This document shows, piece after piece, positions 2,070 to 53,000 of a DNA stretch of 64,000 nucleotides. Source of the stretch: Kosmotoga olearia TBF 19.5.1 (GTDB lineage: Bacteria; Thermotogota; Thermotogae; Petrotogales; Kosmotogaceae); the NCBI RefSeq assembly GCF_000023325.1, contig NC_012785.1, positions 1,550,001 to 1,614,000 of the forward strand, in the 5' to 3' direction. The position numbers and the translations under genes were made by a program. Under the pieces are notes generated by a model. That model did no database searches and was not told where the DNA came from. It was given only the letters and a program-made list of their open reading frames with translations. The stretch's first letter is position 1. The number at the start of each line of letters is the position of its first letter.

Positions 2070-2096
2070 GTGTTGGGATTTGATGTTCAATGTTAT

Positions 2097-2123
2097 CTGA
2101 CCCCCGTAAAGGGGGTCAGTTTT
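2097..2123 (+). terminator. Rho-independent terminator between mtnA and pullulanase
   Basis: A perfect 9-bp stem (CTGACCCCC / GGGGGTCAG) with a GTAAA loop is followed directly by TTTT. The T run touches the AGGAGGA ribosome site of the pullulanase gene, and no promoter-like sequence fits between them. The hairpin may therefore end mtnA transcripts, act as an attenuator in the pullulanase leader, or both. Confidence 0.85.
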
Positions 2124-2135
2124 AGGAGGAATTCT

Positions 2136-4217
2136 GTGGCGGACTTTGCGGTAATAAATTCACGTAGAGAAATACGCCTTTTTTCTTCTTCGATACCTTC
2201 TATTCTTCTGATAAACGGCAGGAGAGCTTCTTTCATTATTGATGAGTTTAATGGAGTGAAATTGATAAAAGTCGATTTTGATCTCTCCGTTTATGACGAA
2301 GTTATCATCGAACTGTCCAATGGTTTATCGGTACCAGCTTATCCTGTTGGGTTAATTGATGAATCCGAAATTACTTATGATGATTGGCTCGGTTATAAAA
2401 TTGAGGATGACAGCATTGTTTTAAAGGTCTGGGCACCGGGACCCCAGAGGCTTTTTATCGAAATTTTCGAATCTGAGAGTAGCGCAGATTTGCCAGTTGT
2501 TGTTCCTATGGAACTCGATAAAGAAACTGGTGTCTGGTCTGTGAAAATCAGTAAAAAATTTCTTAATTCCGCTTATCGTTATAGGATAGAGCGTTTTGGA
2601 AAAATCCTTTACTCTCCGGATCCATATGCCCCAGCTGCTACGGTTAACGGTAAACTTTCCTATATCCTCAAATTTGATGAATTTGTTCCGGAAGGTTGGG
2701 AAAGTGATGAAGGTCCGAAATTGGATTCTCCTGTCGATGCAATTATCTATGAAGCTCATGTCAAAGACCTTTCGACTTCCTGGACCGCTAACTTTCAAGA
2801 CCGTGGAAAATTTGTGTCTCTGTTAGAAGCTGACGCTTCCACTGTTTTGGGTGATAAAGCAGGTATAGCTCACATTCGCGAACTTGGTGCGACCCATATC
2901 CAGTTTCTGCCTCTTCAGGACTTTGGAAGTGTTGATGAGGTTGATGACAACGCTTATAACTGGGGTTATGACCCAATGCTTTATAACGTTCCAGAAGGTT
3001 CGTATTCAACCGATCCATGCTCTCCTGAAAGAAGAATCCTGGAATTTAGAAAACTGGTAAGTGCAGTACACAAAAACGGTCTAGGTGTAATACTCGACGT
3101 GGTTTACAACCACACTTATGTTATTGATACTCCTTTCAACAGACTTGTTCCCTATTACTATTACAGACTCAAGGAAAATGGCGAGTTTTCGAATGGTTCT
3201 GGTTGTGGCAATGAACTTGCGACAGAAAGAACTATGGTCAGAAAATTCATAATCGATTCATTGAAGCACTGGGTAAGGAATTATCATGTAGATGGTTTTC
3301 GTTTTGATCTAATGGCCCTTCTGGGAAAAAGTACTGTACTAGAAATTGAGCGAGAATTGAGACAGGTAAAAGAAGATCTTCTTCTTTACGGTGAACCATG
3401 GTCAGCTGCTTCGAGTTCTATAAAAGATGTGTGTCTCACAAAGGGTGAGCAAAGAAATATCAACATTGCGGTTTTCAACGATGATCTAAGAAATGCTCTC
3501 AAAGGCTATCCTGATGATGAATCAAAAGGATTTGTTTCCGGCGAACGCGGTTGGGAAACGGGCATTGTGATAGGTATGCTGGGGGAGATCGATTACTCGC
3601 ATGTTTTCAAGGGGTTTACTGCACACCCCACAGAAACCATTAATTATGCTTCTGCTCATGATAACCTCACCCTTTACGATAAACTTATCAAAAGCGTTCC
3701 AAAAATATCTTTCGAAGAAAGAAAAAGAATGGCAGCTCTGGCCCTCAGTATAATACTCACTTCTCAGGGAATAGCATTCATACATGCAGGTTCTGAGATG
3801 CTCAGAACAAAGTTTTTAGAAGAAAACAGTTATCGCTCTGGTAGCTTGATCAACGAACTGAATTATCTTCAAAAACGGATATACAGGGATTTTCACGAAT
3901 ATATACGGGGGTTGATTCTGCTCAGGAAGAACCATCTTCTTTTCAGACTTCGTACTGCAGATGAGGTAAGAAGACATGTTGAAGTACTCCACATTGCCGA
4001 TGGTTTTGTTTCAGTAAGATTGAAAGATGATCAAGAAGAGATTTTAGTAGCGCACAACGCTAGAAATGAAGCGGTTTCTTTAAACATTAGCGGGACTTGG
4101 AAGTTGCTGGTGTACGATTGTAAAATTGATCTGGATGGACAAAGAAAGGTACTGGATACCATTAAGGTGGAGAGATTGTCTACGACAGTGGCGATCAGGA
4201 TGAAAGATGAGAGATGA
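2136..4217 (+). CDS. pulA: Type I pullulanase (GH13, debranching enzyme)
   Basis: A 693-aa GH13 enzyme that cleaves alpha-1,6 links of pullulan and branched dextrins. An N-terminal beta-sandwich, including a CBM48-like part around residues 85-170, precedes the barrel. The barrel shows the type I pullulanase signature YNWGYDP (about residue 273), region I DVVYNH, region II GFRFDLMALLG with the nucleophile Asp, region III YGEPW with the acid/base Glu, and region IV SAHDN. No signal peptide is visible, so it probably acts inside the cell on imported oligosaccharides. GTG at 2136 is chosen because AGGAGGA lies 5 nt upstream; an in-frame GTG at 2070 would lie before the terminator hairpin. It complements the exported GH57 enzyme encoded 2.3 kb downstream. 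Confidence 0.94.
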   Translation: MADFAVINSRREIRLFSSSIPSILLINGRRASFIIDEFNGVKLIKVDFDLSVYDEVIIELSNGLSVPAYPVGLIDESEITYDDWLGYKIEDDSIVLKVWAPGPQRLFIEIFESESSADLPVVVPMELDKETGVWSVKISKKFLNSAYRYRIERFGKILYSPDPYAPAATVNGKLSYILKFDEFVPEGWESDEGPKLDSPVDAIIYEAHVKDLSTSWTANFQDRGKFVSLLEADASTVLGDKAGIAHIRELGATHIQFLPLQDFGSVDEVDDNAYNWGYDPMLYNVPEGSYSTDPCSPERRILEFRKLVSAVHKNGLGVILDVVYNHTYVIDTPFNRLVPYYYYRLKENGEFSNGSGCGNELATERTMVRKFIIDSLKHWVRNYHVDGFRFDLMALLGKSTVLEIERELRQVKEDLLLYGEPWSAASSSIKDVCLTKGEQRNINIAVFNDDLRNALKGYPDDESKGFVSGERGWETGIVIGMLGEIDYSHVFKGFTAHPTETINYASAHDNLTLYDKLIKSVPKISFEERKRMAALALSIILTSQGIAFIHAGSEMLRTKFLEENSYRSGSLINELNYLQKRIYRDFHEYIRGLILLRKNHLLFRLRTADEVRRHVEVLHIADGFVSVRLKDDQEEILVAHNARNEAVSLNISGTWKLLVYDCKIDLDGQRKVLDTIKVERLSTTVAIRMKDER

Positions 4218-4218
4218 G

Positions 4219-4504
4219 AGGCCGAGAACCGAGAGGGTGAGAAGGCGAGAGAGCGAGATCCGAGAATCCGAGAATCGGTATGCTTGCAAGTGCGTATCAA
4301 CTGCGAAGCAGTTCGAATCAACTCCGAAGGAGTTCGTGACAACTCAGAATGAGTTCGCTCCAATTCCGAAGGAATTCGTATCTGCCGTAAAGCGGCACTC
4401 GAACACCGGTTCTCGACGTTTTTTCTCACAACGTACAACCAACAACGTTTTTCACGCGCTAGCGTGCATACCGGATCTCGGATTCTCGGATCTCGGACTC
4501 TCGG
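4219..4504. repeat. Mosaic repeat element 1: phased mini-hairpin array with 39-bp inverted borders
   Basis: This 336-nt gap between the pullulanase stop and the glyA start holds no convincing gene. It contains (a) a GAGA-rich left arm with GAGA at 4224, 4231, 4239, 4247, 4255, 4262 and 4270; (b) inverted borders 4245-4283 and 4466-4504, matching at 34 of 39 positions; (c) five 15-nt hairpins starting at 4299, 4320, 4341, 4362 and 4383, exactly 21 nt apart, four of them with a GAA triloop; (d) a module at 4427-4481 that recurs almost unchanged at 36159-36212 in element 2. The borders resemble those of a miniature transposable element, but no target duplication is evident. Confidence 0.85.
4299..4397 (+). 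repeat. Array of five 21-nt phased GNA-type mini-hairpins
   Basis: Units are 4299-4313, 4320-4334, 4341-4355, 4362-4376 and 4383-4397. Each is a 6-bp stem with a 3-nt loop, separated by 6-nt linkers that mostly begin CG. Stems are AACTGC, AACTCC, AACTCA, AATTCC and TGCCGT, each with its matching 3' arm (the last has one G-T pair). Every sequence change in one arm is compensated in the other. Loops are GAA four times and AAA once. The first unit contains the heptamer GCGAAGC, known from DNA chemistry as an exceptionally stable mini-hairpin. Confidence 0.9.
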
Positions 4505-4553
4505 TGTTTTTCCGCACAACCTACAACCAATTTTAAATAAGGAGGTAATACCC

Positions 4554-5822
4554 GTGTGGGAATTGCTTGCAAAGGGCGATCCCGAGGTTTATGAGATCGT
4601 TATGAAGGAGCTTGGCAGGCAGGAGGAGGGTTTAGAGCTCATTGCTTCGGAGAATTTTGTTTCTCCTGCAGTTATGGAGGCAATGGGTTCGACTTTAACG
4701 AACAAATACGCTGAGGGATACCCAAGGAGGCGTTATTATGGAGGTTGTAAGTTTGTTGACGAAGCTGAACAACTTGCCAGAGAACGTGTGAAGAAACTTT
4801 TTAATTGTAAATACGCGAATGTTCAGCCTCACTCAGGTTCTCAAGCAAACATGGCAGCGTATCTTGCTGTGGCGAATCCCGGTGATACTATTATGGGAAT
4901 GTCGTTGAGCCATGGCGGACATCTAACCCACGGTTCACCGGTAAATTTTTCAGGGAAGCTTTTCAATATAGTATCCTATGGGGTTGATCTCGAAACAGAG
5001 GTTCTCGATTATGATGAGATAGAGAGACTGGCGCTTGAACATAAACCAAAGATCATTATTGCCGGTGGAAGTGCTTATTCAAGGATTATTGATTTTAAGC
5101 GCTTCAGGGAAATAGCTGATAAAGTCGGAGCTTATCTTATCGTTGATATGGCCCATTTTGCTGGGTTGGTTGCAGCCGGTCTTTATCCCAATCCAGTGGA
5201 TCATGCTCATATAGTTACTTCTACCACGCATAAGACCTTAAGGGGACCTCGAGGTGGTTTGATACTTACCAATGACGAGGAACTTTATAAAGCGATAAAC
5301 AAAGCGGTATTTCCGGGAATTCAAGGGGGACCGTTAATGCATGTGATAGCGGCCAAAGCGGTTGCTTTTGGTGAAGCTTTAAAGGATGAATTCAAAGAGT
5401 ATCAAATGAGAATTATTACAAACGCCAAAGCCCTGGCAAAAGAGCTGGAAAACCTTGGATTGAGAATCGTTTCCGGTGGAACAGATACCCATCTGTTCCT
5501 TGTTGATCTTAATCCGAAGAATGTAACCGGTAAAGCAGCCGAAAAAGCTCTTGAAAGTGCGGATATAACTGTCAACAAGAATACTATCCCGAAGGAAACG
5601 CGTTCCCCGTTTGTTACGAGCGGTATCAGAATTGGAACGCCTGCTGTTACTACCCGAGGCATGGGTGAAAGTGAGATGAAGGTTATTGCGGAGCTCATAG
5701 TGAAGGTTATAGATAATATTCAGGATGAAAAGGGAACAATACCGGAAGAAATAAGAGAAGAGGTAAAAAAAGCTGTCCATGAACTCACTGAAAAGTTCCC
5801 GTTGTACAAAGATCTTACGTGA
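4554..5822 (+). CDS. glyA: Serine hydroxymethyltransferase
   Basis: A 422-aa PLP enzyme that interconverts serine and glycine while loading tetrahydrofolate with a one-carbon unit. Diagnostic segments are LELIASENF, the [15 protein letters not shown] loop, PHSGSQAN, and the PLP lysine in [13 protein letters not shown] (about residue 227). The GTG at 4554 follows AAGGAGG by 8 nt and gives the usual start [11 protein letters not shown]; in-frame codons further upstream would translate the repeat element. upp follows after 14 nt, so both probably share a transcript whose leader may include the repeat element. Cytosolic; assignment is secure. Confidence 0.97.
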
Positions 5823-35795: not shown

Positions 35796-35902
35796 TAGTA
35801 AGGCAAATATCGAGATCCGAGAACCGAGAGACCGAGAGGGCGAGAATCGGTAGTCGCTGCGCGACCGAGGCTCACGACGTTGTCAATTAGCGAAGCGACA
35901 CG

Positions 35903-35979
35903 AACCGCAAGCGGTTGTAACGAACTCCTGCGGAGTTGACTCGAACCACTACGTGGTTGTTCCGAACTGCTTCGCAGTT
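35903..35979 (-). repeat. Phased mini-hairpin array, inverted relative to element 1
   Basis: Stems are AACCGC, AACTCC, AACCAC and AACTGC with their exact complements; on the minus strand the full loops read GCA, GTA and GAA. The AACTGC/GCAGTT unit is the reverse complement of the first hairpin in element 1, showing that the array is flipped while the shared right-hand module is not. Confidence 0.88.
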
Positions 35980-36085
35980 GATAAGCGCTGAGATGAAAAG
36001 AGAGAATAAAAGAACGAAGTTGGATGTTGGAGATCGGAGATTAGATAAAGAGCGGGTATAGGGTCTAGAGTATAGAAAGTTCAAA

Positions 36086-36120
36086 AACTAACAACTATCA
36101 ACTGACAACTGGCAACTGAG
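36086..36120 (+). repeat. AACTNNC heptad tandem array
   Basis: AACT occurs at 36086, 36093, 36100, 36107 and 36114, exactly every 7 nt, followed by AAC, ATC, GAC, GGC and GAG. It shares the AACT core with the hairpin stems. Confidence 0.8.
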
Positions 36121-36253
36121 AAATCGGGTGTAGGGTTTAGAAAAAAAGACGTACAGCGCACAACGTATAACCAACAACGTTTTCACGCGCTAGCGGGCAT
36201 ACCGGATCTCGGTTCTCGAATTCTTGGATCTCGAAAGTATTGGAGGGATTATG

Positions 36254-50079: not shown

Positions 50080-53000
50080 TCACCATCCGATCGTCTTTTG
50101 TGAGAGGTTTCCTGCAAGATCTCTGGCTACTACCTTAAGCTTTGAAACATCGTTCATGGAGAAGGTCTTTATTATTTCAAAATGATTCTCCCTGTTATGA
50201 ATGTCTCCTATACTGTATGTGGTATCACCAATGGAAACGGATTTGATAACGAAGTTGTCAGATACGGTGATTTTTACCATCACTTCGTTCCCTTGTGTGG
50301 AGAGTATGGTGGTTTCAATGAGAGGAGGGGCTGAATCAACAAAAATTTCATGTGTTTTTGTGTCTGTAAGACCGTGGATGTCTTCAACCATAACGAAGAA
50401 AACCGAATGACCATCAGGGAAGTAACGGGTTTCTTTGAAGGAAAGGTTCTTCCTTCCATAGCACTGCACGACTTTGCTGGAGATATTCCAGTAATCAGCA
50501 CTTGTTACCACAACGTTAAGTCCCTTGTTGTCTGTCGCGGTGATTGTTATTTCAACGTGATTTCGCTGTGTAACCAGTATTTCAGGAATGTTTGTTTCAA
50601 CCACAGGACGTTCTTTATCCGGGAGCAAGAGCTCAACAGTGCTAGCATCGTACCAATCGCTGCCATTTGCGGAAGGGCGAGTATTATCTGGATCGAAGTA
50701 AGTCAATGTCGCTTCTTTTTCAAAATGTATGCCGAATCCGTTTGCCTTTATCTTGAATTTTACCGGATTAGGTATTTTTTCTGAATGATAGTAATGTACT
50801 CTGATTTTGTAGGTTCCTTCGGCTGGAACCTTGTTCTTGCCATAGGAAAGAACATAACGTTCTACCTTTTGTTTACCACCAATGTACTCTCTCTCATCCA
50901 TGGTTAGATTTCCGCATTCGGAACCTCTGTTAGCGAAATAGACAATATTCTCTCCGGGTTCATACACGTACAGATCGAGATCGGCATCTTCATTATCCCA
51001 GCTTAGTTCCACGGTAAGTGCTTCAGTACCATGGAAATAATTCATATGAAGACTTTTTCCACCGATCCCGGTTCTTGATTTTGCAATGACATGGATGGTG
51101 TTTTTGCCAGGTTGTAGAGTAATGGGTATTGCAAAGGTTCCACCTTCAATGGTTTTTGGAGGATTCTCGCTGCCGTTAACACTTACCCGGATACTTCCGG
51201 TTTCATTCTCGGGTTTTGAGACTTTTCCAGATAATTCAAGGCTTGAGGTTGCTATGGCACCACCGTAATCCTGGTCGAAAATAATTTCTATCCAGTTTAA
51301 AGTACCAGCGGTTCTCTTGCCAGCCATATCTATGACAGCGTAATTCAACCCCTTTTTGACTTCTTCAACCGGTATCGAAAACTCCCGGTTTCTTTCGCCA
51401 TTCAGTTTGAATATCTTTTTTCCGATCTGGAGATATTTGATCCCGGAGTCATCACTGAAGATGAGCTTGACTTTTGTTTCTTCACCTAATATAAGGTCAT
51501 AGTCGACAACCGGGGCACTTTTATCCACGTACACATACCTGTATGTTATTGTGGTATTTCCAGAACCATCCGTTACTTCTATTTTCAATTCTTTGGATTT
51601 TGCAATTTCGACTTCAAATCTATCTGAAACCGTTTGTGGGAGATCGTAATTTTTTGAAAGCCCTTCAACGGTTATCGTTGCGATACCGCTTATATCAGTG
51701 GCTGAAACGGTCATTTTTACTTTGCCTGATACGATAGTGCTTTCGAGTTTAACGGATACTTCGGGGCCGTCACTATCACGTTCAACAGTAAAACTTTTCG
51801 ATGACGAATTTCCGGCCGCATCAATCGCCTCTACTACGATCGTTTTCATGGGTTTATCGTCGAGGAATATTTCATGGATGGCTTCGTAGATTTTCGAGGC
51901 GCCCACGTTAACAGGGGTTCCATCTATTAGCACTTTTGAAAGCCGGGTATTGTCGGTGACATGGATATTTAACTTCGCAAAATCTGAACCGGACGTTCTT
52001 CGACCGGTAATTGTAATTTCTGGCGCTTTGGTGTCATAAATAACATAGAATTTCTTTTGAGTGATCTTTCCCGAAACGTCAATGACGGTTGCTATGACAG
52101 ATTTTGTTTTTCTGTCAGTGGTGTATTCAACTCTCTGCAGCTCGTTATCAGGGTCAAAGGCAACTTCTTTGCCGTCAAGCAATACTTTCTCTATCCTGGT
52201 ATCATCCTTCATTTTGAAGGAGATTATAACGGTATTCTTTGAAGTGAAGAAATAGTCTGCAATGATCAGGGTTGGTGGTTCTAAATCACACACTAGATTG
52301 AGTTTTACGCTACCAAGTTTGTTCATTCCTAAATCGAGCATTTTGATTTCCAGTTCGTTCATCCCTTTGATAGACGAATAGACCGTAACTCCGCGGATTG
52401 AGGGGCTCATCAGATCAATGTAAAGCGCGAAGGGAATATTGTTTACATTAAAGATAGCGCCGTAAGGTGTAGAGGTAGAAACCCTGATTGGGGTTTTAGT
52501 GTTTTCACCCACTGTGAGATTCTTTTGTAATGGTTTTTCCAGGTTCAATAAGCCGTTTATCTTTGCACCGGTAAGTGGATAAAGGAATCTGGTGTCTTCT
52601 GGATCGATGCTTTTTAAGGCTATCAGGTTTTTTTGCAATTTATCACGATTTTTACGGGAAGCTTCCAGTAAAATCATGGTTTTCAGAAGGACCTCGTTTT
52701 TAGAAGGTTTCAGTGTTTTTCTGGCTAAATAAGACAATGCGTTTTTTATGCCTTCTTCATTCCACACTTTGGTTATTTCCCATGAATACCGCAATTCATC
52801 TAAACCGGGGTATTTTTCTGCTGTGGCGATCGCTTCTTTCATTAGTTCTGTATTGGAGGTTGCGAACCCAACCGCAAACAGTGTCCCAAGGGTGATCGGA
52901 TCACCATACTTTTCGTTTACAATCCTTTCAGCGAGTTTCAGGGCTTTGTCATCCATGGAGTTTCTCAGGTAGGCTTCAGCGATCGCTCTTATTAGATAAG

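Follow-up and report, generated by a model that had tools for sequence, protein, structure and literature searches.

An ordered mini-hairpin array as the probable core of a mosaic extragenic palindrome family in Kosmotogaceae

In Kosmotoga olearia TBF 19.5.1 an array of five DNA mini-hairpins between a pullulanase-like gene and glyA probably forms the core of a single member of a family of composite extragenic repeats, which has multiplied in the K. olearia lineage and occurs in smaller numbers in other Kosmotogaceae. The family is dispersed, intergenic and modular, and this copy was inserted at the pullulanase-glyA junction after divergence; furthermore, arrays are able to move between genera along with a gene, and they exchange units with one another in register. 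These elements probably constitute a Kosmotogaceae mosaic extragenic palindrome family that spread as DNA, with the hairpins kept by single-stranded DNA processes. The original prediction is confirmed as an observation and partly supported in its interpretation.

The array and its inserted mosaic

The window, which is the whole 64-kb stretch analysed, spans positions 1,550,001-1,614,000 of a single 2,302,126-bp contig. Within it five mini-hairpins start at 4299, 4320, 4341, 4362 and 4383, so that the predicted 15-nt palindromes and their 21-nt spacing are exact. All lie on the forward strand, and units 1-4 are perfect 6-bp/GAA/6-bp palindromes, including the GAA loop foreseen for four units. 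Unit 1 (4299-4313) is of type AACTGC, unit 2 (4320-4334) of type AACTCC and unit 3 (4341-4355) of type AACTCA, a variant found identically in six phased units, while unit 4 (4362-4376) carries AATTCC, a compensated variant of type AATCCC. Unit 5 (4383-4397; TGCCGTAAAGCGGCA, TGCCGT-AAA-GCGGCA), elsewhere the terminal type TGCCGC, has five Watson-Crick pairs and a T-G closing (wobble) pair around an AAA loop. No phased arrays were found in 20 first-order Markov copies of the window, and the same loose scan of the real sequence returned three matches, namely this array, a second array at 35917-35979 and a two-unit match at 51672. The last is imperfect and unrelated to the arrays, and was dropped.

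The array is contained in a mosaic repeat of ~330 bp (4207-4535, approximate edges) between an upstream pullulanase-like alpha-amylase family gene (2070-4217, forward strand; PF00128, CBM_48) and downstream glyA, encoding serine hydroxymethyltransferase (4554-5822, forward strand; PF00464, E=2.1e-175). This gap measures 336 nt in K. olearia, and 1, 15, 16 and 13 nt in relatives L169, L171, L173 and L174, respectively. Because the flanking genes are only 1-16 nt apart in these four relatives, comparison of the junctions identifies the mosaic as an insertion, gained after the split from them. Its array is bracketed by a 50-nt inverted repeat, with a left arm at 4246-4295 (forward strand; a CCGAGAATCCGAGAAT module, then a TATGC..GTGCGTATC head) that is 84% complementary to the right arm at 4454-4503 (forward strand; CACGCGCTAGCGTGCATACCGG followed by TCTCGGATTCTCGG repeats), and which is the basis of a long stem in both RNA and DNA folds.

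A second mosaic, at about 35810-36234, lies between the promoter side of a DUF368-type gene and sufC and has inverted ends TCGAGATCC / GGATCTCGA. Its array (35903-35979, reverse strand) has the order AACTGC, AACCAC, AACTCC, then AACCGC with a 2-nt loop. This mosaic occupies the suf operon leader, with a promoter-like TATTATGATACAATTAG stretch on one side and the sufC start on the other, and is missing from the matching stretch in relative L177 and from a shorter one in L179. Inverted modules of CCGAGA type frame the two window mosaics, and at the pullulanase-glyA and sufC loci the empty sites are too diverged for insertion ends or target duplications to be read. A scan for promoters and terminators returned nothing. 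The mosaics have further modules made of short-period repeats, including AACTGAC, CGGATCT, ACGTACAACCTACAACC and CTATACCCTAGACC (window 36086-36119 and 4472-4504; loci L004 and L014).

A dispersed family with fixed unit order and an invariant linker

Arrays were read from searches together with 44 sampled stretches of the genome. Using the array region as query we obtained 142 genomic matches, and the family is dispersed at ~80 genomic places, with 67 arrays of at least two units in the sampled stretches, window included. The pattern AACTCC-GNA-GGAGTT-CGNNNCA, allowing at most one mismatch, occurs at 92 genomic places, compared with 1 for the reversed control pattern. From left to right the stem types follow the order (ATCGAC), AACTGC, AACCAC, AACTCC, AACTCT or AACTCA, ACCGGC and AATCCC, after which come a terminal hairpin with a 5-bp stem (TGCCGC or CGCTGC) and repeats of CTCTCGG; 226 order pairs were concordant and 3 discordant, against a mean of 115 and a maximum of 143 concordant pairs in shuffles. 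The units of one array are arranged head-to-tail with the loop always on one strand.

Linker length was exactly 6 nt in 130 of 130 adjacent library-hairpin pairs, and all detected unit spacings were 21 or 42. Loops had 3 nt in 202 units, 2 nt in 12 and 4 nt in 3 (n=217). Since the linker is invariant while the loop varies, the constant measure in the arrays is the linker, and not helical phase as such. Together, fixed order and the 6-nt linker form an architectural rule. With a 21-nt unit, 6-nt linkers and stems that differ inside an array, the arrays do not fit the CRISPR pattern of near-identical direct repeats and unique, evenly sized spacers.

With mechanically predicted genes, 23 of the 67 arrays lie in convergent, 26 in tandem and 13 in divergent gaps, with 5 unresolved. 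The arrays showed no strand preference relative to genes, and a rough count on either side of the skew change, used in place of a located origin, showed none by replichore. Approximately 25 of the 67 cluster at genome 1.21-1.44 Mb, often as runs of a single orientation.

Conservation of pairing and competing explanations

Within unit types, mean pairwise mismatch was 0.060 in stems, 0.534 at linker positions 3-5 and 0.111 at linker positions 1, 2 and 6, which bears out the expectation that structure is kept over linker sequence. At loop positions 1-3 it was 0.183, 0.449 and 0.000, the last value being partly a product of selection because units were oriented by requiring A, although unselected loop counts also strongly favour A. 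Loops are (G/A)NA and the closing pair is C-G in 227 of 258 units, in agreement with the predicted heat-stable, C-G closed GNA loop; such loops form very stable DNA mini-hairpins, with GCGAAGC melting near 78 °C (PMC4686876). With DNA energy parameters for 65 °C the two strands came out practically alike, which neither favours nor disfavours the idea that it is the GNA strand that folds.

Covariation across the copies, proposed as a check, was found: there were 20 compensated double changes, compared with a mean of 2.9 and a maximum of 7 when arms were shuffled within types. Many of these go back to one change that was then inherited in several copies (AACTCA six times, ACTGGC six times), leaving about eight distinct changes. 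Among the copies compared, the nearest sister of the window array lies at genome 1,341,457. Over 91 bp, loops account for two of the differences between them and linkers for three, and the stem of unit 4 differs by one compensated pair, AATCCC/GGGATT to AATTCC/GGAATT. On this comparison unit 4 is a genuine compensated change, with the remaining between-unit differences at 4299-4397 mostly representing a common, inherited repertoire of unit types in constant order, not independent compensation. This carries a warning that apparent covariation between units can arise by copying ready-made units. The claim that every stem change is compensated therefore stands for units 1-4, but not for unit 5 with its T-G closing pair, nor for the 53 single-sided stem changes found genome-wide (11 G-T, 22 A-C and 20 other). 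Set against the outcomes named beforehand as refuting the original prediction, the picture is mixed: some changes are uncompensated, and this locus is an insertion, yet many copies occur and not one. Selection on RNA pairing would hardly leave G-T without preference, and the pattern fits processes at the DNA level; among these is template switching, reported to generate hairpins and also to repair them (PMC8794818). Inverted loops, a possible product of intrastrand template switching, were not seen in phased arrays.

Other readings of the arrays fit these data less well. The arrays could be REP-type elements moved by a resident Y1 tyrosine transposase (RAYT) that recognises the mini-hairpins as single-stranded DNA, and indeed the genome has two RAYT-like Y1-type transposase genes (PF01797; L041 and L042), both with a common degenerate array fragment at the 3' end and one with a full array ~100 bp away, while in a Mesotoga-type relative the sole strong array adjoins a piece resembling a RAYT gene end. 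However, of the 67 arrays a single one neighbours a RAYT gene, the relatives' RAYT genes lack array units at the ends examined and are near GGGACAGAC-type palindromes instead, the GTAG tag is absent from the arrays, and RAYT presence across relatives does not follow array presence. The array-RAYT link thus appears weak and we regard this reading as unlikely; no mobilising enzyme tied to the arrays was found.

Less probable again is a transcribed RNA element that acts on adjacent genes, for example as an attenuator or as a signal for processing or stability. Both window copies would fall within a transcript, and the full region folds as RNA better than shuffles (z -6.6), largely through the 50-nt inverted repeat, but the DNA fold is about equal (z -6.1). 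Furthermore, arrays in tandem gaps are split 14 with and 12 against transcription, 13 arrays lie in divergent gaps, and the single changes (11 G-T against 22 A-C) have no G-U preference. Arrays are missing at matching gene junctions in relatives, and an Rfam search of the window found no array match, only two tRNAs. With neither G-T preference nor strand bias, the folded RNA signal originally suggested is disfavoured. The other original suggestion, that 21 bp makes two helical turns and places all hairpins on one face, would suit a phased double-stranded protein-binding platform such as a nucleoid or topoisomerase site, and all detected spacings are multiples of 21, with conserved CG..C linker ends. 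Yet in 15 of 217 units a 2- or 4-nt loop upsets the phase, linkers never change length (0 of 130), and the loop ends ((G/A)NA) are asymmetric, unlike a symmetric duplex site. This weakens the helical argument and makes such a platform the most improbable of the three.

For a mosaic palindrome family spread as DNA, we propose that mobilisation and recombination between modules would have distributed the mosaics. The GNA strand may fold into heat-stable mini-hairpins when single-stranded, during replication, during repair or on encounter with a hairpin-reading enzyme, and this would keep stems paired, through folding selection and/or template-switch correction of imperfect palindromes. The pullulanase-glyA insertion would not itself require a function; it moves glyA away from the upstream gene, and its long inverted repeat would be part of the RNA if both genes are still cotranscribed. 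Passive repeats do not ordinarily require such regularity as the fixed order and invariant 6-nt linker display, however, and the arrays may have a recognised function. As a speculation in which we place little confidence, the ordered mini-hairpins could be one object, a hairpin 'ladder', for a dedicated single-strand DNA machine of mobilisation, capture or repair; no description of such a ladder in bacteria was found. K. olearia reportedly grows at 20 to 79 °C. The family is rule-like in its fixed order, invariant linker and C-G closed GNA loops, in a setting where DNA hairpin stability matters, and its many copies, empty sites and cross-genus pair can be used to study the spread of palindromes and the maintenance of pairing in the absence of RNA selection.

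Spread among relatives and comparison with known repeats

The matches between near-identical copies end inside modules or inside the array, with breakpoints placed as would be expected of recombination between repeats. A 1,598-bp block comprising an ATPase gene and an array is 97.6% identical between K. olearia and G006, a member of the same family and another GTDB genus (L022, L094), and identity at this level across genera suggests recent horizontal transfer. Inside the block an AACTCT unit in G006 stands in phase with an ACCGGC unit in K. olearia, with the flanking linkers changed and their length kept, so the block points to transfer between genera as well as to an in-register swap of a whole unit. 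Such replacement would produce apparent covariation without point compensation. Relatives also have linker subfamilies of their own on the common stems, CATAAC in G006 and CAGAGC in G008, which marks them as separately amplified.

A pattern scan covering 84,980 species and 2.9 million viral contigs, which targets particular stems and may leave out records very near the window's genome, found phased arrays in Thermotogae records only. Pattern matches in other phyla were each inspected and were single chance matches, not arrays, and a search of phage and plasmid collections for arrays returned nothing. G004 and G041, genomes of different families, have a nearly identical array contig (L024/L026); one may be mis-binned, and they were not counted as independent. 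Elsewhere in K. olearia a group II intron (RF02001, 99.7 bits; L091:2757-2919, genome 1320356-1320518) starts right after an array's terminal hairpin and TTTCTCGG, and a sister array at 1334506 is without the intron at the matching place.

We found no published description of the arrays in the literature searched, and the portions seen of the K. olearia and K. pacifica papers make no mention of them. Both K. olearia and M. prima have been recorded as having CGTC-3 REPs (PMC3733652). The arrays share with REP and BIME elements short palindromes in many copies that are intergenic, clustered and frequent in convergent and tandem gaps, and with 67 arrays and 92 AACTCC-type matches they are high-copy and extragenic as REPs are. 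However, CGTC REPs have 8-9 bp stems, 4-5 nt loops, a terminal tag and a 20-40 bp unit (PMC3733652), whereas the arrays have 6-bp stems, 3-nt loops and 15-nt head-to-tail units with no fewer than six distinct stems in a set order. No terminal unpaired GTAG/CGTC tag was found on the arrays, whose units are flanked by CGNNNC linkers, and the alternating palindrome orientation of BIMEs is not seen. CGTC-3 REPs are a different element from the mini-hairpin arrays. In several mosaics a CGTC-type element is a neighbouring module beside the array.

The inverted CCGAGA frames and clean insertions of both window mosaics may liken them to MITEs, elements bounded by terminal inverted repeats and a target-site duplication, but there are no defined ends common to all copies. 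Hairpins maintained by template switching (PMC8794818) are similar in their compensated changes and in not favouring G-U intermediates, although no loop inversions were seen in phased units. Neisserial intergenic mosaics (dRS3 with interleaved repeats) are likewise large, built of several short repeat families and reshuffled by recombination; dRS3 is a single repeat, whereas the Kosmotoga core is an ordered heteromeric hairpin array. Overall, by analogy, the family resembles the mosaic extragenic repeats of other bacteria, and its new part would be this ordered heteromeric hairpin array.
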